DNA of 64,000 bases from Diphasiastrum complanatum (taxonomy: Eukaryota > Streptophyta > Lycopodiopsida > Lycopodiales > Lycopodiaceae). The notes beneath the pieces were generated by a model. That model was not told where the DNA came from. It did not search any database and saw nothing but the letters and a program-made list of their open reading frames with translations. The stretch lies in assembly GCA_029204225.1 (NCBI GenBank), contig CM055107.1, positions 15,682,900 through 15,746,899 of the forward strand, in the 5' to 3' direction. The position numbers and the translations under genes were made by a program. Position 1 is the stretch's first letter; each line of letters begins with the position of its first letter. Positions 3,661 to 51,931 of this stretch are shown in pieces.

Positions 3661-6600
3661 TCCTCTTCATCATCTGAGTTGTTGGAATCATGAGAATCAA
3701 TTTTTGGGTTTTCAATATTTATAAAACTCGAAGATATATGTACATCTTCATCAGATATATTTGTGTTGTCCAAATTTAGATCTTCCATTTCATTCTCAAC
3801 ATATGCATTTTCAAGTACATGTCTTGAGCGTGGCTTAATTTGAACAACATACCACCAATCTTTGTTTAGTCGATCTGGTTGAAAATGCATATTTAAACAT
3901 TTAGCAATGTTAGGATTAGATATTTGTTATGATCACATTTTAACTCACAATAAATAGATGTAATGCAAAAGTAGTGTAGATAATTAATATAACATTGATC
4001 ACAATAATTGACAAAAAGAAAAAATGTGAAATTCATGCACACCTGTTCACAATGATGAGGCAACACCAATGTGTCTGAAATGTCCATGCTTAATGTCTTG
4101 GTTGAATCGATAGCAAAAAATCCACTATGATCTGTTTTTACAGTTGCATTTGATCCTCTATAGTTGATTTTAAACCATTTCACGTCAAACAACAAATATT
4201 TACCCATTTCACCAAAACACACCTCATATATGGCTTGTATGGTTCCTACATACTCAAGCTCTCCAGAAATTGGACTTTGATCTCGTGCACTACTCCGACT
4301 TTCTTGATGGAAGGATGCCATCACACCACAATCATAAGTTCGTCGTTTCGTATCAATTGATTCAATGCGATAATGACAACCATATGCCCACATTGCACTA
4401 TACTTTCGATACTATCACATGTTGATTATAATCAAAACAATCATCAATCACCGTACAAATTTAAATTGTTCACTTAAAAAAATAGAGTTATAGACAAACT
4501 TTCCAATCACATCCTCTTGCAGATTCCCATTCTTGTCCCTTTGATCTTGCTTGTTGGAGTGTATGAACCATCCAGTCTATGGTGCAATTGTTGGGCAATG
4601 GCTCAAGATCATGTGAAGGTGCAGCTTGACCTCTAAGCCTATTGCATCGTCAATACCCTTTTTTCTTCTTCTTCATTATTCCAACCATTTATCCATTACT
4701 CCTAAATTATATAGCATGAAGGTTGAAATTTTTTCTCTTAAAATAGGTGTCATTTTCTTAAGACTACCCATACCTTGAGGTTTTTCACCTTTCACCTCAT
4801 TGCTTTCCTCATCATGCCATAGTCGTGGAGCAGATGGATCTATTTGAAACAAAACTTCGGTAACATAAAATAGAGATTCTTGTACTAACCATCCCTCTGA
4901 CATGCTATCCTCTGGCCTTGCCTTCTGACGCACAATATTTTTCAACACTTTCATGAATCTCTCCAAGAAAAACATCCACCTACAGAAAATTTTAACACGT
5001 CAATGAGAACATTCTGTTATTAATTTGAAAGAATCACACTACATTTATTGAAACCACTAAAATCAAATTCGAGTGTATTATACCTTGAGTGCACAACACC
5101 GGCAATACCAACTTCTTGGACCAAGTGCACAAGCAGATGCACCTACATGTCTAGGATAGAAGTTAGAAAATCCCTCTCAAGCATACATACAGCCTCCACC
5201 ATATCTTCTTGTTTTGTTTGCACGTCTATCTCACAAATCTCCTTGCCACACATCCATCTACATCATGTTTGTAGTATAACTAGATTTTAGTACGTTCACA
5301 TTATTTTATCAAACTTGTATTAGAAAAAAAAACACATTTAAGTACCTGACAATGGATGCTAATTTGTAAATGGCATCACGAAGTTGATCAGTTAGACAGC
5401 CACGAATGCACATTGGAAATATGTACTCGACCATCTTCAACCAATCAAGAGATTTTAGACCATGGAATTTTCCTTCAGCTGTGAATGATGTTCGTAGTGA
5501 ATGAGCAAAACCTATTGGGGTGACCGTACATACTTATACTCTTCTTTTCTAAGAATCCAAGGGGGTCTTGGAATACTATAGGTATTTCCATCAATACATA
5601 ATTTTGGCCAATACTCTTTTTTTTGTTTTTGATTCTTGTAGGTCATGCCTGGCAGAAATACTGTCTTTGTCGCCCACCAAGTGTTTCCATATTGATTCAC
5701 TCACATTTTGAATTTGTGCATAGGATCAAGCAAGTGATTGATCAAAAGGTTATTCCAATATGGTAAACAATGAAAGATGGATAGTCTTTTCATATCATTG
5801 ATTGGCTTAGTCTCGGATTCAATCCAAAGTTTGTGCCAATCTGCCACGAACATTCTCTTTGGAGGCATTCGTGTTTTTGATCTTTCTCAAAAGCCTCTTC
5901 TATGAACATTTCTAAGTGAATGATTTTCATCATGCAAGTACTTGCGATGATTTTCATACACAACTTTGTTTAAATGACGTGAGTGTCGAGCATCAATATT
6001 TGGTCCACAAATGAGAAACGCGTGATATCCAGAAGTTGTAAAACCTAAAAGAATCAAATCCACTTCATGTTATAAATAGAATTATTTTAAAGAATAAATA
6101 TTGCATGCATAAAAAATAAATATACAAAAATTACAAGTGATTTCATTTTATAGTCACCTGAACAATTGCCCAATCCTAGATAGTCATGCATAGTCCACAT
6201 TAAAATCGCACGCAACAAAAATGTATTGTCTTGAAGTGGACGTGAGATGTCATATGCTTGGACTCCCTTCCATAGTAGTTCTAGTTCTTCAATCAATGGT
6301 GCAAAGTAGATATCCATATTTTTTACTTTATGTTTTCCAGGAATTAGAAGTGCTAGCATGAAATGTCCTTTTTTAATGCTTAGCCAAGGTGGAATGTTAT
6401 AGTTGACCAACACCACTGGCCAAGTAGACCACGTGCTTGACATTTTTCCAAAGGGGTTAATCACGTCTGTTGCAAGTCCAAATCTTATATTTCTTGTTTC
6501 ACTTGCAAAACATGGATATTCTTTGTCAATGTGTTTCCATGCAAGAGAGTCCGAGGGTACTCTCATGATCTCATCCAAAGAACAATGACTAGCATGCCAA

Positions 6601-8661: not shown

Positions 8662-9125
8662 TTTTCTCTTGCCCCTATACTAAGCCAAGTTGTGGTGATC
8701 TTCTACTGAACACTAGTAACTGACTAGTGTCACTGCTTATCAAATATTGACTATGGGTTGTCAATTGTTTACAACTAAGTTGTGCAAAAAAAGGAGGAGA
8801 CTGGACTGCTTATGAAGTATTTGTATTTGCAGGAGCATGTTAAAAGTCACCAGTGGTTTAATTCAATTCAATTGCCTACTTGTCGTACATGAAACAATGG
8901 CAAATGGATTGTTTTAAGTAGTCTAAATAAGACATTGCAATCGTCCTTACTTTGTCATTTTAACTTCAGTTCATGACACTCGCTTAATTGTAAGTGGTTT
9001 TTTAGCTAGCCTATGGTTTCTAAGTGTTGATGAATACCATCACACTCAAAACATTGATAGATTGAGCTCTTTGCATTGGCCTACTTGATGTACAAGAAAA
9101 TTTGGCTTTTATATTGATTTAGTGG
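8660..9125. other. Anonymous sequence, no gene seen
   Basis: No open frame, repeat or motif that I recognise between the CA tract and the A-poor tract. Confidence 0.5.
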
Positions 9126-14757: not shown

Positions 14758-14765
14758 ATTTTGGG

Positions 14766-14807
14766 TTTAGGGTTTAGGGTTTAGGATTTAGGGTTTAGGG
14801 TTTAGGG
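14766..14807 (+). repeat. Interstitial telomeric repeat, six TTTAGGG units
   Basis: Six tandem 7-bp plant telomere units, five perfect and one with a final A (TTTAGGA, 14780-14786), preceded by a partial TTGGG (14761-14765). The array sits exactly where the copia E reverse transcriptase core is missing. It is followed by a filler-like stretch in which a 14-bp word is duplicated (14813-14826 and 14857-14870). Confidence 0.97.
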
Positions 14808-20620: not shown

Positions 20621-21032
20621 ACTTGGAGGCGCCCCTTACATGAGAGGGAGTTTACACTACATGCCATTGTAATGTTGTGGACAATGCATGACTATCTAGG
20701 ATTAAGTGAATGCTCAGGTAATCATTCAAACATTGTCTATCTTTTGTACATAGGAGTTTTTTTACAGTTACATACAACTAGTTTATGACATTTACATGAT
20801 ATACTACAATGGCTAGAATTATTCTTTGACATATACTTTTTTTTAATAGTGATTGATAGTATCCATTTGTTGGGAAGGCTTTTAAACGGCTGGAAAAAAT
20901 GCTTGTTTTTTGTGCGGGCCAAATCTTGTGGGAAGATACTCATAGTCTCAAAAAAGTTTATGAAAATCATCGTAAATACTTGCATGAAGGCCATCCATTC
21001 AAATACACTCATAGAAGAGGTTTTGGAGGAAG

Positions 21033-21112
<80 letters not shown>

Positions 21113-21190
21113 TCCAAAGAGGATGTCTGTGGAAGATTGGTGAAAACTATGGGAGGAATCTCAAGCAAAGACAACCGATGGTATGAAAAG
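20600..21190 (+). pseudogene. Second TNP2 transposase fragment with in-frame GA repeat
   Basis: The plus-strand blocks VMLWTMHDYLGLSECSGN (20660-20720) and VYENHRKYLHEGHPFKYTHRRGF (about 20955-21025) are the same as blocks in the minus-strand transposase at 3661-6889 (WTMHDYLGLGNCSG; ENHRKYL with HRRGF). This is therefore another copy of that family, in inverted orientation and reduced to the middle of the gene. An intron-like AT-rich stretch separates the two blocks. Coding sequence then runs into a GA microsatellite read as Arg-Glu repeats. No C-terminal DUF4218 part follows. Confidence 0.8.
21036..21108. repeat. (GA)n microsatellite inside TNP2 fragment
   Basis: 73 bases of perfect AG/GA repeat, open in the transposase frame as alternating Arg and Glu. 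Confidence 0.97.
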
Positions 21191-21680
21191 ATTATCTATA
21201 TTTCATCGTTTGATCTTTTGATTAATCACCTACTTGATCCCATGCAAAAATTTGCTAGATTATTAAGAAATTAAATTTTCTATGACATCATCGATTTGAC
21301 ATAATATTATGTCATAAAATCCTTAAAAACTTGTCAAATTAGTTGTTTAATAACAATATGTACTCTCTTTGTATCTCATGATTTTGTCTTGTATGTCAAA
21401 TCTCAAAAAAAATAAAATTTATGATAATATAAAACTAGTTTTAACAACTAAGTACTACCATAAGGATCCATGATTTGATTTTTTATATTCCATCATATTA
21501 AAAATATATTTTTATGTTTTTTTAATGTCAAATCTTACAATAAAATATTTTCATAAATTCTAGAAAAAATAATGACTTGCATTTAAAGCGTGCAAGCCCA
21601 TGTGGGGGACCCTCCCATGCATGAAGTGAAATTTTTTTTTCGCGTGGATACCTTTTGCGTGGATAATCCATGCCAAAACT
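21190..21680. other. AT-rich stretch, no gene seen
   Basis: Very AT-rich with no open frame of interest. It may contain the boundary between the TNP2 fragment and the next element, but no terminal repeat was recognised. Confidence 0.4.
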
Positions 21681-21683
21681 TGA

Positions 21684-22683
21684 ATGTCAATAAAACCAGA
21701 TTTCCACAAGCATTTTAGTCCTCTTCTTTTGCTTTCAAGTTTAGTGAATGTTCTGTTTAGTGCTCTTCCTAATTTATTGATCTTGCTTGTTATTGCTCTT
21801 CCAATGCATGGCAATGTAGTTCACGCCCGTTTGCGTGATTTAGTTGCTTTATATTTTGGTAAAGATTACGTGGCCGAATGGTCCTCCCAATCGCTTCAAG
21901 ATAAATTTAAAATAATATATACTTTATATTCTGAATTCCCTCAATCCAATGTTTTTAGTAGGACTTGGGCCTTGAACACAATGTGCCTTTGGATTTGAAA
22001 CAAAAGGCAATTGATGAGAAGAGTTGTGAAGAATCCCAAGAATCCCACGAAGCCTAGATGGTCCTCCAAACGGGATTTATGGATGGTGAAAGGGGAATTG
22101 TTGCAAAACAATCCCCAAGAATATGAACAACAACATAGAGCCGCCACTGAGAAGATCTTAAAACATGGCCAAAGTCACTTGGGATTGGGAGGAAGGGGCA
22201 ATCTAGAGGCCCAATTTGTAAGTGCAATATTTTTTACTATGATTCTATTTTTGTAGTGAGATTGTTTTGCTAAACAATATTGTATTGCTAAACTATGTTT
22301 TTTTTGCTGAATGTAGCTTAGTGATTTTGGAAAACACACGATCGTAGCCAAGTACAAACAAGGCTACGATCATTGGTATGTCGGCCTTAAAGCTTTTATG
22401 GAATCCCATGGATTGCATCCAATTGTAAACTCTTAACCTTTATTGTTTCGTGATTGTTTACTTTGTGGTTTACAAGTAAATTTAATCTCAATTTAATCGA
22501 ATCTTTGATTCTATTTTGTAGAGAGGCTCTACATCGTCAAGCGTTCATGATGTAGAGGAAAATATTGAGGAGGAAAATGTGGAAGAGAACGTGAATGAGA
22601 GCGAACGGGAGTTTGAAGATGTGGACACCAACGTAAACCTACAAGATGAAGGAAGCGAGAAGGGAGGAAGTGATGATGAGTAG
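21684..22683 (+). pseudogene. Unrecognised three-exon gene, one in-frame stop
   Basis: Exon 1 runs from ATG at 21684 (start not certain; the first ~40 residues are hydrophobic) to a GTAAGT donor at ~22218, with a single in-frame TGA at about 21996. Exon 2 starts after the AG at ~22316 (SDFGKHTIVAKYKQGYDHWY) and ends at GTAAAC (~22425). Exon 3 starts after TTTTGTAG at ~22521 and is highly acidic (VEENIEEENVEENVNESERE), ending at TAG 22681. The middle of exon 1 is basic (NPKNPTKPRWSSKRDLW), followed by LGLGGRGNLEAQF. I know no family with this sequence. The position next to transposase-like and methyltransferase genes suggests a transposon accessory protein. Confidence 0.45.
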
Positions 22684-22839
22684 AACTTTAAAATTGAATG
22701 TAAGGCCTTGTAGAAGGCAATGGATGAAGAGGGAATTCATTCCCTCATCAATGTCCTCTTTTTGAAATCAATATAATGTTCTGCCACTACGTCATTCTTC
22801 CAAAAATGTTGAATGCCTATATTTTTAATTCATATAGAG

Positions 22840-23977
22840 AACATTTTTTATTTTGGCAAACTCTTTGTACATCAAAAATATCTCTAATTTTGTAAAATTA
22901 TCCAACAAGTGAAAATATAAGGAATTAGCTCTCCATGCACATCTATGAAATGCTTTAGCCAACCAGTTGCATTCAAAGCATCTGGAGAAACAGTTCGACC
23001 CTGTAAGGATCCCCGTAATGTTGGATCTTTTTGAAGTCGTGCATGCATTCGTTGAAGCCGTGAGTTTCTGATTGCGTGAACTGCTTTGTAAGCTTTGCGA
23101 CAAACATCCAAAGCATTAAAAAAATATGAATAGGAGTTTTTGTCCATGCTCACTATTGTACACAAATAATAATTCCTTTCATCCTTACTTCGTAAAAAGA
23201 AGTTTGATCTTAACTGTTCAATTTCTCTGATACTAAGTTTTTGTAAGCAACAGGATGAGTAGTAAATAATATTCTGTACTTTACGAATCTCAAATTTTGT
23301 AATCAACTATTTTTGACAATTAGTTAAAACAGGTGAAGATCTCAAGTCTCTCTTGTATTTTCTCTTTTTGTTGGAGTCTGATCTGTAAATTGAACCTGTG
23401 ACACTTGTAGGTGCTTGAATTGGTTGAGAAGGTGTTGGAGTTTTTTGACTCCGAATTCTAGCTCCAATCTCAAGATGTTCTGGACCCTCAAAATGTTCTA
23501 AATTTTCTATAAGTATAGCCCTTTTAGATTTCACACGACGAACATCACTTTGAGTAGGTCTCCTACGAACATGTGAAAAGCTTGAACGTCGAGGATCAAT
23601 AGACTTAGCGGATCTGTTGATTTACTAAAATCAGTAACCAAGTGAATTGAAGCTTGTGAATTCTCACTCAGTGATTCAACTTGTTCAAAAGGACAATGTT
23701 CTAATTGTGCAGAGCCTGTATCTAAAGAGGAGGACGAGGTCAAAACACTTGACACAAGTTGAGTTATAGGTGTCATTTCTTGAAAAGTACTTACATGAGG
23801 AATTTCAAAAGATGAATGGAAAAATGATGATGATGCCACATCATTTACGGAAACATGTTGAGAATCAGGAGTGGCTTTATAAAAAAAGCTAACATTGGAA
23901 ATTTCAAATGAAGATGATGCACTTGCTGCAACATATTGAGTTACAACTACTGGAATGGAGGAGGTACTACTCGACAT
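22840..23977 (-). pseudogene. Degraded protein with Cys-rich N-terminal domain as in some eukaryotic DDE transposons
   Basis: Minus strand from ATG at 23977. The N-terminal ~150 residues are Ser/Thr-rich and disordered, with a frame change near 23605. A basic segment (SNKKRKYKRDLR) follows, then a TAG at ~23306, then a folded part: SCCLQKLSIREIEQLRSNFFLRSKDERNYYL and FFNALDVCRKAYKAVHAIRNSRLQRMH (22884-23270). From memory, the pattern CCxxxCL, then R..F, then ERN, then VCRKAF resembles the start of uncharacterised eukaryotic DDE-transposon proteins; no search was possible. The catalytic DDE part is not present: coding ends near 22884, converging with the preceding plus-strand gene. It is divergent from the ParB/methyltransferase gene, with the palindrome array between them. 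Confidence 0.42.
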
Positions 23978-24007
23978 CGTAACCTTAAAAAAAATTTAAC
24001 TAAGACT

Positions 24008-24584
24008 TATGCTAAGCATAGACTTAAAACTAAATGTGCTTCACAAACTTAACATTATCCTATGCTGGTCATAGAACAAATATGCGAACCTCAATAGACT
24101 TGAACAAAGAAAATAGCTAAACGCAAAAGAAACAAGCCTAGAAATAAAATGGTCAATTGGAATCGGAAACGACCATGTCTTAAATACTATATGGGCGCAT
24201 CCTTAGGGTTAGGCTCAACCTAGGATTAGGTCTAGATTAGGTTTAGGTTTAGGCAAGCAAGGTCCTGACATAGGCCCACGAGGTCGGCATGAGACAGATT
24301 GAGCCATGTTAACTCTGTTCCGGCAAACTCCAGGTTGGCCTGAGGCCTGAGGCCGAAGTCCAAGAAAAAAAAAAGCGCAAACTCCAGGTTGGCATGTGGC
24401 GTGAGGCGGGTGTCCTAGAAAAAAATTTATTTAAGGACCCTCGTCAGAGCATAACTCACCTCATTTGCGAATTCAAAAGCACACAAATCACGGATTCCTA
24501 TAGTTATTTGCATACGTCCCTTGCACACATTCCTTCACGATAAGATTCATGTCATTTCTAAACTCCTTTCTATGCTTAACATGG
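24008..24584. repeat. Scattered single copies of the CTATGCT/AGCATAG palindrome
   Basis: Imperfect single copies at 24008-24021, 24059-24075 and 24570-24584 precede the dense array. Between them are degenerate TTTAGG words (24202-24257) and a short tandem duplication of 'gcaaactccaggttggc' (about 24324 and 24378). Confidence 0.7.
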
Positions 24585-24652
24585 CTAACAAGGTATTGCA
24601 ACTACTGAATATTCATTTTTTTAAAAGAGTGCCACTTCTTATAACCTAGGTG

Positions 24653-25049
24653 ACCTATGCTCAGCATAGGTGGTCGCCTGAGTCTCCTCCTATTACCTAT
24701 GCTCAACATAGGATGTGTTCGAGTACTAAGCGCCCACCTATGCTTAGCATGGCATGTCCCCTTGATGTTTTGCTTCTTACTTCTTATCTGACCTATGTTG
24801 AGCATAGGTCGCCTCTTCGACTCTCTTCTCACCTATGCTCAGCATAGGTGGTCTCTCGGGTAATCTTGAACCACTATGCTCAACATAGGATGTCTTCGCG
24901 CCCCTGATTCTCACCTATGCTCAAGTGAGAGTCAGGGGCACGAAGACATCCTATGCTGAGCATAGGTGGTTCGAGATTACCTGAGAGACCACCTATGCTG
25001 AGCATAGGTGAGAAGAGGGTCGAAGAGGCGACCTATGCTCAGCATAGGT
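24653..25049. repeat. Array of ten ~19-bp palindromes at ~41-bp spacing
   Basis: Copies of ACCTATGCTNAGCATAGGT or close variants begin at 24653, 24695, 24736, 24791, 24831, 24871, 24913 (left half only), 24949, 24991 and 25031. Start-to-start distances are 42, 41, 55, 40, 40, 42, 36, 42 and 40 bp. Intervening sequences of ~22 bp differ from one another except where the large inverted repeat mirrors them. It lies between two divergently transcribed degraded genes. The layout resembles subterminal protein-binding arrays of plant DNA transposons or an array of dimer-binding operators; function is inferred. Confidence 0.93.
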
Positions 25050-25050
25050 C
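24790..25050. repeat. Large inverted repeat (~125-bp arms, ~9-bp loop)
   Basis: Left arm 24790-24914 and right arm 24924-25050 are reverse complements with about seven substitutions and one 1-base gap; the loop is 24915-24923. Three palindromes lie in each arm. As RNA it would make a long near-perfect hairpin. All substitutions between the arms are transitions. Confidence 0.92.
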
Positions 25051-26239
25051 AGGACTCGTATTCCACATAGTTGTTGCAAGCCTCAGCTTCTTAAAAGTGT
25101 AAATAATGAGACATTTTTGCGTGAATATGTGCTTCTCTTTGGTCTCAAATACTTGTAAATCATGTGAATTTATTATTAAATTTTACAAAAATTACGTACT
25201 TTTTAGTAATCTTTAGAGAATTTAGTCTAAAATTGCTTATCTTTTTTAAGTTTTCAATATTTTTATGAAGATCATGTTTGAGAGATTACTCAAGAATTTT
25301 TTTTCTTTGCAGATTGTCTCCTCTTTTTTTCTTTGCAGGTTGTCTCCAAAATGTCGAGGATTTCTTTCAAAATATCGGACAAACCTCAAGATATCCCATT
25401 GAAAGACAAGAAACAATTCATGTACTACTTTACTAGAGGAGTTAACAATGCAAAGCTCTTTGAGATTTTTATTCATTTAGCAGAGAAGTCTGGCAGGGGG
25501 AATTCACAATTTCCTATTCAAGGCAGATTGCTTGCTGATCAACCACATGAGGATCAGGAAGAAGGTTTTGTGAACGTCCTGGTAAAAGAGACAAATAAGT
25601 CTCATTCTATTTTCATTTTATGTAATCATAAATCATGTTTCGAATAATGTTTATTAACATGTGATGTATGCTTAGTATAGTGTTTAACTAATTTTAAAAT
25701 TCCTAGCACCTTGCAAGCAAAAGATCTCTTATTAGAATTGAGTAGTCCTATGCCGAGCATAGCTCATATAAACTTCTTTGCTCATTATGCTATAAACCTG
25801 TATTTTGTTTATGTTCAGAGCATGAAGCAATGCTTAAAATTGGTACTAGCTGCTATTGCAAAGGGGAAAGATCCGATATATTCATTACGAAGTGCTAAAT
25901 CTATAATTATGAGACCTCATAGCCCTGCTTATACCACTGCTCAGGTCACAAAACCCACTACTGAAAATGTTGAGGCCACCGTAGCTGCCCCTCACCCAAA
26001 ATAAAAAAGATTACACAATATTTCTAAATCCTCACCCATCAGACCCAAGTCCCGCCCAAAGACCATGGCTACACATCGCCATAAGGCCATTCCTTATGTT
26101 AAAAGCAAGAAAGATGTATCTAGACCCACTATGTCTTTACTTGGTGCTTCCATCCGCCCCCTTCAAGACACCTCTGAAATTGCTAAATCAAGAGATGAAA
26201 TTCATAAAACAAAAGAAAATTAGAAAAAAAAAACTTTTA

Positions 26240-26680
26240 TTTTGGATATAAACCAATGTGATAGGCTCCCTGTTGATCCAATAATTGGAGATAGGCCAAT
26301 GGAAGTACGAGAACCTAACGAAACACATGTACATAATCTTAAAATAAAATTTAAAGATATCCAGGCCATTGTAATGCCTTTCGTTGTTTTGGTTGACTCC
26401 TCGGAATGCAACGATGTTGCAAATTTTGATTTTTCTATTTTAGATTCTTATCATTTTTTTGTTCTTGGGGGCATACATAGTTTACAGGCCTGAAAACAGT
26501 TATCCCAAGAATATCCTCATACTCCCTCTTTCCGAACCGTTAGTGCCATTGCATTTGCTGGCCTGACAGTGGATGAAGCAAAATTGCTCGCTTGGGATCA
26601 TAATATTGATCAGGACTACAACATGAAAATGACCGTAATACAAAGAATTCGATTTTTCCATAAGGAAAATATGAGAGTCT
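26240..26680 (+). other. ParB-like (Spo0J/sulfiredoxin-type) domain of the fusion gene
   Basis: The translated stretch reads DRLPVDPIIGDRPM, then EPNETHVHNLKIKFKD, MPFVVLVD, then YHFFVLGGIHSLQA (26452-26490) and, after a TGA, KQLSQEYP with VSAIAFAGLTVDEAKLLAWDHN. This follows the ParB N-terminal pattern: an entry P..P..R, a helix choosing a subset of sites, a beta strand ending PxVV, the YxVLGGxH box equivalent to GERRxRA, then the helix with an Ala-rich segment. In phage and bacterial proteins this domain often precedes a DNA methyltransferase. The call rests on pattern recognition alone. Confidence 0.6.
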
Positions 26681-27454
26681 CCAAAGTTGGAGATGTGAAT
26701 CAATTGGAGTTGAAGGCACTTTGTGCAAAAGAGACATGCCTGTCGTTTGATTCAAAAAATCCTACGCAGGGCCTTACAAAACACGACAATTTTTTTCAAC
26801 TTGCTTTCCGTAGTGGCCATGTAATTTTTTCTCTATGCTTGGCTTGGAATGCTTTGTTCAAAATTTATGTTATTAGATTCAAATTTTGAAATTTATTTTC
26901 ATATTCCTTTAATTGCTTTCGAATAATTAAAATCTCTTTTGATTTTAGGTATGGGCCCTTGTCGATAAAATTTTTGACAAGTGGGAGAGTTTTCAAATAA
27001 AAGGCCAACCTGCTCAAAGTGCCTCAAAAGGAAAAAAGAAAGTTGTCATCTCTCAAACTCTGAAGCCAATCCCTACAGAAATGGGAATATCAGAGTGGAA
27101 GAACATGCAAGAGATTAGCTCGTCGGAGCTAATAATAAGTGTTCTTTCTAGAGTTGCAGATGGTCAACTCTCTCTTGCAAAAATGGGGAAGGAATTTTAG
27201 AGGTAATATTCATGATTTAAATGTTTATTTTCAAGTCTTTTTTTTTATAAAACAATTCTCAAGATTTAGAAAGATTTCTAACAATTACATTTTTTTAAAT
27301 GCGAACATAAATTGTTTATGAAAGTTTGAAGAAGTCTTTGTGATAGGGTTAGACTGTCAAGATTTTGAAGAGTGCCAAAGGCTCTATCCTTTGAGCAGCC
27401 GAAACGAGGATTTAAGTCAATTTTTTATTTTGTTTAGAGACATGGTATTTGCTT

Positions 27455-27660
27455 CACCCATGCTAAGCATAGCTTCTTCTTTATCTCTTTATGTTTTATC
27501 TCCTATGCTAAGCATAACTTCTTCTTTATCTCATTATGTTTTGTCTCCTATGCTTAGCATAGCTTATTCTTTTTCTTTTTATGTTTTATCTCCTATGCTA
27601 AGCATAGCTTCTTCTTTGTCTTTTTATGTTTTATCTTCCATGCTAAGCATAGCTTTTTCT
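27455..27660 (+). repeat. 45-bp minisatellite, five units carrying the same palindrome
   Basis: Units start near 27458, 27502, 27547, 27592 and 27637. Each has CCTATGCTAAGCATAGC or a near copy, followed by a T/C-rich ~28-bp spacer containing TTTATGTTTTATC. It lies in the probable intron between the ParB-domain exons and the methyltransferase exons. By chance it is open in one frame. Single copies at 25666-25680 and 25747-25763 lie in intron 1 of the same gene. Confidence 0.92.
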
Positions 27661-27735
27661 TTATCAGTCCCCTGAAGATAAAAAAAAAAAAACAAAGTCC
27701 TTCCAAAGCAATTCAATAGAAAAAAATGACAGGGA

Positions 27736-28620
27736 AAGACTAGCGGGATGAGACCATTGCGGAGGAGGATCCTTTAGAGATCTACCTCCCCAAAAATGTC
27801 GATGATCAACCATGCTTTTACATAGTTGAGGAGAGCAATTGTAGAGAAATTTCAAAATTCTTAAAAAAAAAAGGCCTTACACACTCTGCATTGCCGATAT
27901 ACCATATGGATTTCAGATGAAGGAATCATTAAATGATGATCCTCCTTTCAAATTCACTGAAATCCATAGTTGCATGCAAGGGTTTCTTGAAATCACAACA
28001 TCTCCTATTTGAAGAGTTGTTATTTTTCATTCCTCTTGGCAATCAGCTTCAATACAGAAAGCTTTATTAACTTTCTGTAACGTAGAAATAGAAAAGGTTG
28101 TGCGGTAAGTCTTTAAGTTCGCGAATTATTAAAAGTTTTATTTTAAATTTGGTATAAACAACAATGTTAACTTAAATAATTTGAAATTTTTTATTTATTC
28201 TAACTGTAATGTTCTTTTTCAGGTACAAGCCCAATGTCAGAAACTCGGGAGGAGCGTAACTTTGCAATAAAATAGAATATATAACCATTGGTTATTATTC
28301 TTTGGACGACAAGCGCTCGATGCTTCATTACAACACCTCTGGACTGACAAGTTTTGGCAACTTGTTCCAATATCCAGCCATGACAAAAAAACTTAAAAAT
28401 CCAATGGCAGGTTCCGTGGCTTGTCCCTACCAAAAGCTATAACAATCAATTAATCATTTAATTGATATTTTTTCTCACCCAGCTGATTGGATTTTGGACT
28501 TATTAAATGGTAGCGGCACTACGAGCGCATGTGTTGTTCGAAAAAGACAAGCATATTGCTGCAGTAGATTTAGATTCCAATTTAGTTGCTTTTGTAAAAA
28601 ATGAGAATAAAATCTCTTTC
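27736..28620 (+). other. N6_N4_Mtase-type catalytic domain of the fusion gene
   Basis: Two exons. Motif IV is DIPYG at 27896-27910 (D-[IP]-P-Y-G, third position Ile). A beta-strand RVVIFHS precedes a helix (28014-28080). KPNVRNSG and IEYITIGYYS follow the intron. CPYQKL, then ADWILDLLNGSGTTSACV, is the SAM-binding motif I, and VDLDSN (28564-28581) is the acidic loop after it. Motif IV before motif I is the beta-class order of PF01555. One -1/+1 frameshift separates NGSGTT from VDLDSN. Whether the intact relative made 4mC or 6mA cannot be told. Confidence 0.7.
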
Positions 28621-28879
28621 AATTTTGCTAGATGAACTGGTTGAGGTAGGAAAGAGTTCAGACAACGAAAACTCACTAATTTCCTTGTCCAAAGAACCCC
28701 AACCTTCTACTAGTGGAAAAGTGGATGATACAGGGGAGTTTGTTGATGTCTTAGTTTAGGACTATAATGTGATTACAGTTGTTGATGAAATTGTGGAAGA
28801 TGTGTCAATTGACATTGTAGTGGCTCCTCAAAAAAAAAAGAAAGATGTAAATGACCTTGATGATTTCTGGGAGTAATAA

Positions 28880-29690
28880 ATTCTCTTTTATTTTAAGAAA
28901 CAATTGCGTTTATATTTCTTGAAATATTGTGTATTGAAATCTTTTTGATTAATTTAATGTATTTAAATTTATTTGTATTAAAAAGATAGATTTAGCAATT
29001 TTTTAATGATTTGAATATTAGCAAAACTAAAATTGCAACGAATTGTCAATTTTAAATATTTTAATTTTTTGTTGTGTTTTTATAGTAAGTTTTTGAGAAT
29101 AATTTCATTTGCAATCATTTAATGTTTAAATATAAGTAAAGATTAAAAAAATGATTAAAATTTTTGTCAGAATTTAAAAAATATTTTTCTTGATACAAAA
29201 ATTGTAATTTAAAAAACTTTTAAATTTTACAAAAAATTAAAAACTTTTGTTTTTAATAAGCAAAAAGTTTTATTTGAGTTATTCTAGTGGTTGTGTGTCT
29301 AATGATTTTATTTTGAATAGTATTATTATTTCATATAAGCTAATTTACAGTTATTAATAAAAATCTATTAACAAAATTTTAGTAGCTTGATTAATTTTCT
29401 TGCAAAATACAACATTTTTTTAGCATTACAATATCTTTATTTAAGGCATTTTAAATATGAATAATTTAAAAAAAAATAAAAAAAATCGATAAAAATGGGT
29501 CTACTTGTCATTTCTCTTGTTTTTGACCATCGTGTTTCAAGTCTTGTTTCAATCAAGACGACGTTCTAGCAAGCGCGCAGCCAACAATATCACGAAATCG
29601 TTGTTTCTACAAATGATTTCGCTCAACCAGAATGGATCCATCTTGTTGAATTTCACACTTGTGGACTGTCCACAACATGTACTTGTGATC
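28880..29690. other. Extremely AT-rich 3' flank, no gene seen
   Basis: Mostly A/T runs to about 29490. A 63-codon plus-strand frame at 29505-29696 has a hydrophobic start and is followed by LTR-like DNA; I do not recognise it. Confidence 0.5.
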
Positions 29691-50945: not shown

Positions 50946-51931
50946 AAGGCTTACCCAACTAGCAAGGTGATTAAACAGAGTCCTATCTAACACCCAAAGG
51001 GAGATAAAATGATGATTGCAGCTAATTAAGAAATAAGCAATAAGAGCATGCCACAATAAAATCCTATGAAAGGAGGCAAGAGGAGGCCCGAGCACCTTTC
51101 CTCAAGCTATGTACCTTCCAAAGGGAACACAATGGAATGGAAAGATAATCTCAAGAGAGCAAATTAGCATAATCTTACAGTGTTATTTACAAGGGAAATG
51201 CCTCTCTTCTTATAGCAAGAAGGGCCTTCTATAAGTTTCCACTAACTTATGGGATTAGTCTTCTAAACTTGCCATTCTAAGGCTCTCTACTTCTAAGTTA
51301 GAAAGCTTGAGTATTTAAACTAAGAACTTAAGATAACTTAGAATCTTTTATTTCTAAGCTTAAGTTTCTTAAGCTTAAGTTTTAAGTTTAAGTTTCTAAC
51401 TTAGAAGTTTAGAATTTATTTAAGCTTCTACCCATGGGCTTACAAAACACATGGCATAGTAGAAGTTTATCAACATTTACTCATACATGGACTTACAATA
51501 CACATGCCACAGAGTTTTGTTTCTCTTTCTTTCTACTTTGTTGCAAACAAAATCCAAACTGGATGATATTCTTTTATTTCTCAGCTTAAGTTTCTTAAGC
51601 TTAAGTTTTAAGTTTAAGTTTCTAACTTAGAAGTTTAGAATTTATTTATGCTTTTACCCATGGGCTTACAAAAGACGTCATAGTAGAAGTTTATTAAAAT
51701 TTACTCATACATAGACTTACACATGCCACTTATTTCTCTTCTTTTCTACTTTGTTGCTAACAAAATCCAAACTGGATGATATTCACATGTGGCTAGTACT
51801 TTCAACACATTAAATGCTCATTAATGATCCAAAGAAACAACCAAAACTAGCAATCATTAGCCAATTTAAAGCTAGGAGACACTCAAGATCCAAAATCACT
51901 CTCAAACCTAGAATTTTCGTGCATGGATCTA
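50946..51931. repeat. Non-coding internal part of copia C with a 226-bp duplication
   Basis: The gag of C is not recognisable here. 51346-51571 is repeated at 51572-51784 with few changes. Both copies start TTTTATTTCT, include 'aagtttcttaagcttaag', 'cccatgggcttacaaaa' and end 'ccaaactggatgatattc'. Confidence 0.85.

Follow-up and report, generated by a model that had tools for sequence, protein, structure and literature searches.

Transposons of brown, green and red algae have been reported to encode proteins that combine a ParB-like region with a DNA methylase, among them the ParB-like/methyltransferase accessory protein (1104 amino acids) of the 21.5-kb element Sola1-1_Ec32 from Ectocarpus, and the main-text section that treats such algal proteins suggests that they may bind and modify their own transposon (PMC12477816). 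A second point of reference is the VANC protein of Arabidopsis VANDAL elements, which acts at short motifs (a 9-mer for VANC21) that lie in tandem repeats upstream and in introns, its own included; VANC proteins carry DUF1985/DUF287 and cause methylation loss, and related elements differ in both their motif and their protein (PMC5735166). Here we describe a variant of the algal kind of transposon in a vascular plant. A 64-kb stretch of the Diphasiastrum complanatum genome (‘the window’ in what follows; G000:C16:15682900-15746899) holds a dead, decayed member of a family of cut-and-paste-type DNA transposons, in which arrays of a palindrome accompany a ParB-like/methylase gene; array and gene are real, ordered, and common to two lineages. 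A sequence-only reading of the window had proposed a possible ‘new mobile system’, a claim that finds no support in that wording, because transposon proteins of this type are already reported from algae (PMC12477816); what is new is the vascular-plant element and its co-varying arrays. We propose that the palindromes are recognition sites of the ParB-like/methylase protein, which would act as a dimer and regulate a shared promoter, and we put the chances of this being right at about even.

When up to three mismatches are allowed, the palindrome CTATGCTNAGCATAG has 22 matches in the window, against a mean of 2.49 and a maximum of 8 in 100 dinucleotide shuffles of the same DNA, and 20 of the 22 fall at 24007-27652. 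The main array, of nine palindromes, lies between two divergent genes (24655..25047), with six of its eight spacings at 40-42 bp and the remaining two at 55 and 77 bp; six of its palindromes are inside a large inverted repeat of 265 bp (24788..25052, 91.7% self-complementary). Three sparse, degenerate palindromes (24007, 24060 and 24570; spanning 24007..24584) precede it, and sites of this sparse type recur at a like place in other copies of the element, which we denote by locus numbers (L039 at 3538 and 3607, L043 at 22 and 92). Beyond the array come two single palindromes (25666 and 25748; 25666..25762) in what appears, by eye, to be the first intron of the ParB-like/methylase gene, then one weak match at 26833, and then a 45-bp minisatellite that contains five palindromes and lies between the coding stretches of the ParB-like part and of the methylase (27458..27665; the matches themselves at 27458-27652, the Tandem Repeats Finder row at 27460-27665). 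The interval between these two coding stretches also holds palindromes in L039 (6713-6850), L038 (8013) and L020 (6445, 6490). Most of this layout had been described correctly in the sequence-only reading: its ‘about ten’ palindromes at ~41-bp spacing upstream of the gene are the nine given above, and its pair in the first intron, its five in a minisatellite of a later intron and its few degenerate copies at 24.0-24.6 kb are all present. Its further remark, that none was noticed elsewhere in the 64 kb, captures the clustering and is otherwise to be amended by two matches, each with three mismatches, at 8675 and 41706.

Across the genome searched (1.74 Gb in 5176 contigs), exact CTATGCTNAGCATAG sites number 4012, with none for a reversed control pattern; base composition and a first-order Markov model, taken from 106 kb of the Diphasiastrum complanatum genome, give expectations of 6.7-7.2 sites for the palindrome and 0.9-7.2 for the reversed pattern. 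The excess of the palindrome is thus ~570-fold. An origin by chance or as an artefact of composition, for which roughly seven sites would be expected, has a negligible probability on these figures, being ruled out by the window shuffles, the genome count, the reversed pattern and the expectation model alike.

The association between palindrome and gene can be approached from either partner, or from the ends of the element. With the palindrome as the starting point, the 50 exact sites at the head of the list, all at C1:1-14.94 Mb, form 15 clusters, and with 10 kb taken around each, element coding pieces are found near 9 of the 15, and stretches of 520 bp or more that are homologous to four element copies (three of them drawn from the 15 clusters themselves) at 11 of the 15; both counts are 0 of 5 for control stretches of C1. 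Taking the gene first, a genome scan with the ParB-like core gave 150 scored matches out of 2521 candidates, and eight rank-spread copies, all on the plus strand, were read over the 1.3 kb that extends from -2.2 to -0.9 kb relative to the core. Seven of these eight have 2-14 upstream sites at up to three mismatches (2, 3, 8, 14, 0 and 4 for L040-L045, 9 for L048 and 11 for L049), compared with 0 in a 50-kb control, and overall 7 of the 10 gene copies read carry upstream sites. Taking the left terminus first (40 scored matches out of 916 candidates), palindromes are present in three of the six stretches examined from that scan; of the other three, one is internally deleted and two yielded no gene piece. 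We regard the linkage as strong but imperfect.

Nine relatives (L001-L009) came out of a scan through bacterial and archaeal genomes, every one of them in a single ‘uncultured Trichormus’ assembly. Trichormus azollae is a cyanobacterium that lives in the fern Azolla, and because the nine loci have coding stretches split as if by introns, along with DUF7869 genes and pieces that resemble retrotransposons, we infer that their contigs are Azolla fern DNA binned with the cyanobiont. At least nine CAKZGI01 contigs of this bin resemble fern nuclear DNA with transposons, presumably as contamination. Four of the loci (L002, L003, L005 and L008) have, in order, a divergent open reading frame (ORF) of 873-898 amino acids, palindromes, a ParB-like ORF and some or all of the methylase exons, and all four presumed Azolla divergent proteins scanned match PF25273 (E 1.8e-52 to 3.7e-51). 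The divergent gene is broken in L007, whilst the contigs of L001, L004, L006 and L009 start, by eye, too near the gene to contain one; methylase exons, also by eye, are seen in eight of the nine loci, L009 being the exception. The palindrome of these loci, TCGATGCNNNGCATCGA, occurs in six of the nine, at 0.4-1.1 kb on the upstream side of the ParB-like match (at up to three mismatches, 4 copies in L001, 5 in L002, 15 in L003, 10 in L005, 9 in L006 and 2 in L008), with no copy upstream in L004, where ~0.3 kb is present, or in L007, where the gene start is missing. Spacings of 40-43 or 50-54 bp account for 35 of 39. CTATGCTNAGCATAG and TCGATGCNNNGCATCGA have ATGCNNNGCAT in common and differ outside it, each being symmetric at its informative positions, so that between the two lineages the place of the palindrome is constant and its sequence differs. 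Perfect dyads in the intergenic DNA exceed all 100 shuffles in L001, L002, L003 and L005 (18 against a shuffle mean of 0.5 in L003, 11 against 0.5 in L005), and number zero in L004 and L009. The Azolla-type genes are under purifying selection: dN is 0.03-0.24, dS exceeds what can be corrected for in 28 of the 41 pair comparisons, and the dN/dS ratio is at most 0.12 in the 13 computable pairs, with protein, catalytic motifs and palindromes kept among the copies despite largely saturated synonymous sites.

These properties of the Azolla loci speak against a passive link to the gene, by which a host factor would bind the palindromes, or the palindromes would simply be self-propagating repeats or hairpins; the Azolla palindrome differs but keeps its core, its place and a similar spacing where synonymous sites are largely saturated, and perfectly symmetric sites rise above the shuffles at four loci. 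We hold such a passive link to be quite improbable, even though arrays do expand through tandem and inverted duplication, and even though four of the 15 clusters (L014, L019, L024 and L027) lie outside element DNA, three of them with spacings mostly of 26-32 bp, from which it follows that sites exist also apart from recognisable copies. Those four clusters also count against our preferred reading, recognition by the ParB-like/methylase protein, and they do so in company. Stops are present in 133 of the 150 scored core copies (a manual count); the rank-spread copy L044 lacks palindromes over the 1.3 kb read, and so do L046 and L047, two copies on C1 chosen because no exact site was listed nearby; the broken gene of L009 has no TCGATGCNNNGCATCGA in ~0.6 kb upstream; the perfect-dyad counts of L006 and L008 merely equal the shuffle maximum; and the ParB-like region has no significant profile match in Pfam, PHROG, NCBIfam or PDB. 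Nor is the helical repeat the best fit to palindrome spacings in the window’s genome, for which the best period is ~14 bp; for this reason we make no claim of helical phasing, even though a period of 10.4 bp does fit the 19 distinct gaps at the Azolla loci (R 0.74). The co-occurrence of arrays and gene expected in the sequence-only reading accordingly stands for 11 of 15 clusters and seven of eight gene copies, and not for the four unlinked clusters or for L044, L046 and L047.

The transposon measures ~8.8 kb, with AACAYGRTGA-type termini and 4-bp target duplications, and copy L039, at 8824 bp, has every element part present. Its inverted termini and target-site duplication class it as a terminal-inverted-repeat DNA transposon. 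In an all-against-all DNA comparison with the genome copies, homology of the window copy ends at ~22818 and 29536, and this truncated copy (22818..29536), stopping where it does on the left, is therefore without the DUF7869 domain and the left end. Its right terminus (29526..29536, minus strand) reads inward AACACGATGGT, at a breakpoint common to seven other genome copies. Alignment of copies, as the sequence-only reading had advised, does bring out the ends and target duplications elsewhere: shared breakpoints place the left end of other copies at AACACGATGACATTTG, with left ends reading AACACGATGAC (AATACG in L020) and right ends AACATGATGAC or AACATGGTGA, and the 4-bp duplication, judged by eye, is exact in five of seven (L015, L020, L026, L034 and the Azolla copy L002), has one mismatch in L039 and is absent in L007.

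The divergent gene of the window is represented by a minus-strand ORF (22884..23306) that matches the N-terminal part of the DUF7869 protein of L008 directly (24% identity, blastp E 3e-10 in a set of four sequences) and is 63-82% identical to copies in the window’s own genome; a further minus-strand open frame from the ORF list (23531..23995) is the probable start of the same gene. L034, L037 and L039 match a DUF7869 protein across the domain, the window copy only over the N-terminal part. Neither tblastn of the window at E 0.01 nor a database search with the divergent gene found the DUF7869 match, and the gene was identified only via the presumed Azolla loci. We consider the DUF7869 protein to be probably the transposase. 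The divergent gene of the sequence-only reading is hence confirmed, and its placing of palindromes, divergent gene and ParB-like/methylase gene within one transposon is supported.

The ParB-like/methylase gene itself is present in the window and broken by stops and frameshifts. Its first coding stretch (25352..25583, plus strand, as are all that follow) is an approximate exon, an open frame that recurs in genome copies and whose splice sites were placed by eye. Next come the ParB-like core (26224..26823, equivalent to G000:C16:15709123-15709722), with one in-frame stop (TGA) and a relative in protein P0001; a coding stretch that matches the L008 protein in tblastn at 38% identity (26949..27185); a methylase motif IV region, ADIPYGF (27869..28084; tblastn with L001 and L008 exons, 44-49% identity); and a motif I region, LDLLNGSGTT (28221..28529; Pfam PF01555, and 37% identity in tblastn). 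ADIPYGF is found in all five aligned methylase exons, and LDLFSGT in four of the five slices, the fifth of which stops at LDLFS. Profile and motifs IV and I assign the predicted methylase part to the N6/N4 amino-methylases (PF01555), the match of the window’s methylase part having an E of 6.2e-6, exactly on the curated cut-off, and that of the L001 exon an E of 2e-8. ‘ParB-like’ is a motif-level label only, drawn from motifs and from published proteins that are built alike; the best Pfam match in this stretch is DUF6551 (E 0.025, in 6 of 14 members). Of the two domains named in the sequence-only reading, the amino-methyltransferase is thus borne out by a profile, and the ParB domain at the level of motifs. 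Sequence matches in PDB were judged to be low-complexity or chance.

One protein search yielded a single relative, P0001, and 123 proteins matched a profile built from P0001 together with the window piece; the 120 matches listed are mostly from ENA, with some from JGI and one named, that of Ceratopteris richardii. We rejected the idea that the ParB-like protein came from a phage or a plasmid: neither the 50,697 phage records nor the 72,556 plasmid records searched gave a match to P0011, the relative from Ceratopteris, and no relative appeared in two IMG/VR scans. P0041, P0042 and P0081, on unnamed contigs, form a second group of ParB-like relatives, 37-46% identical to P0001.

What can be observed directly (the element with both ends, its pair of divergent genes, the arrays, their association with the gene, and the outer letters of the palindrome that differ between lineages) leads us to a proposed model, in which dimer binding, the identity of the binder, methylation at the palindromes and any influence on expression are our own suppositions. 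Working members of the family would have two divergent genes, one for a DUF7869 protein (the probable transposase) and one for a fusion of a ParB-like part to a DNA methylase of the N6-adenine/N4-cytosine type. We suggest that a dimer of this fusion would recognise the palindromes between the genes and in the introns of the methylase gene, and that occupancy or methylation of the array may then mark and regulate the promoter common to both genes, such that the element stays active against host silencing, or else limits its own expression.

The array is also directly upstream of the transposase gene, both genes diverging from it, and L037 keeps an array with the transposase side whilst no ParB core or methylase match is found in its 10 kb. 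The palindromes might thus be bound by the DUF7869 transposase instead, in a transposition complex or in self-repression of the promoter, with the methylase acting elsewhere; TnpA of En/Spm uses its short repeats in this way, for complex assembly or promoter repression. Several features make this unlikely in our view: the array is internal rather than subterminal (in L039 the left end is ~3.5-4.4 kb away and the right end >4 kb), additional sites occur inside the methylase gene, and L034, the internally deleted copy, has no palindrome yet retains both ends and a 4-bp duplication, so that the sites seem dispensable in cis. By the same token, the array was seemingly not needed for movement of L034 in trans, which points to regulation. 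To return to the ParB-like/methylase protein as binder, the likeness to VANC, with tandem targets upstream and in introns that diverge, suggests a self-recognition system, and since the element carries a methylase, self-marking is the natural, if putative, reading; the element may, in other words, mark or switch its own DNA. We can envisage, more tentatively, and as something we would lean against at present, a self-addressed epigenetic system of bacterial type, in which the predicted protein would recognise the arrays and deposit N6-methyladenine or N4-methylcytosine (6mA/4mC) or nucleate an assembly, with enzyme and palindrome co-diverging so that each family would mark itself only.

Among the open-licence papers listed in literature searches, titles and abstract openings showed no other ParB-methylase transposon proteins from land plants and no palindrome arrays with these genes, and DUF7869 was not found in the open-licence literature searched. 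The algal proposal names no target site in its main-text section (PMC12477816), and the arrays supply a concrete candidate; as this candidate tracks the gene and varies between lineages, the published idea of self-modification becomes testable. If our proposal is true, a DNA-marking system of bacterial type would be at work in the nuclear genomes of vascular plants, in parallel with the anti-silencing system of VANC, and would be a possible source of sequence-specific epigenome tools.

Some further observations were made along the way. Directly to the left of the point where the transposon is cut off, 20737-22700 holds apparent pieces of another plus-strand gene or element. The window also contains an interstitial plant-type telomere repeat of seven TTTAGGG units (14759-14807), two tandem copies of an AT-rich 226-bp repeat that include palindromic stretches resembling TTAAGCTTAAG (51344-51784), GA repeats, and ORFs read as Copia- and Gypsy-like. 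Elsewhere in the genome, dense CTATGCTNAGCATAG arrays with no element homology in 10 kb occupy L014 at 4930-5340, L019 at 4500-5330 and L024 at 4900-5080, and the array of L019 has similar stretches repeated along its length. Some copies of the ParB-like core are paired with equal scores, C8:3040649 and C8:3117879 for example, and are perhaps recent duplications or assembly haplotypes.

Bacterial and phage ParB-parS systems and ParB-methylase fusions likewise combine palindromic sites with a ParB-like region and an N6/N4 methylase, a resemblance already pointed out in the sequence-only reading, whereas ParB families are without a significant sequence match to the window protein and the window palindrome differs from the parS consensus. 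En/Spm, a CACTA element, has arrays of TnpA sites near a promoter, CACTA termini and a 3-bp duplication; our element resembles it in having arrays of short sites near a promoter, for a protein of the element (as is predicted here), and departs from it in its AACAYGRTGA-type termini, its 4-bp duplication, its internal array and its other second protein. The CACTA parallel of the sequence-only reading does not survive these differences, and membership of that group is ruled out by them. With VANC and VANDAL there is a likeness of layout, repeats lying upstream and in introns, with no kinship and with targeting that is putative here, and the 9-mer target of VANC21 differs from the long palindrome of the window element (PMC5735166). 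DUF1985/DUF287 are absent among the 10 families matched (E up to 1) by 14 ParB-like relatives, in an alignment that covers the ParB-like and not the methylase part. Sola (Sola1) transposons have a 4-bp target duplication, the length found in our element. A close counterpart is Sola1-1_Ec32, which shares with the window element a protein of ParB-like and N4C/N6A methylase parts on the strand opposite the transposase; the two differ in length and in host, an alga as against a vascular plant, and whereas the main-text section on Sola1-1_Ec32 describes no palindrome array (PMC12477816), the window element has arrays both between its divergent genes and within the methylase gene.

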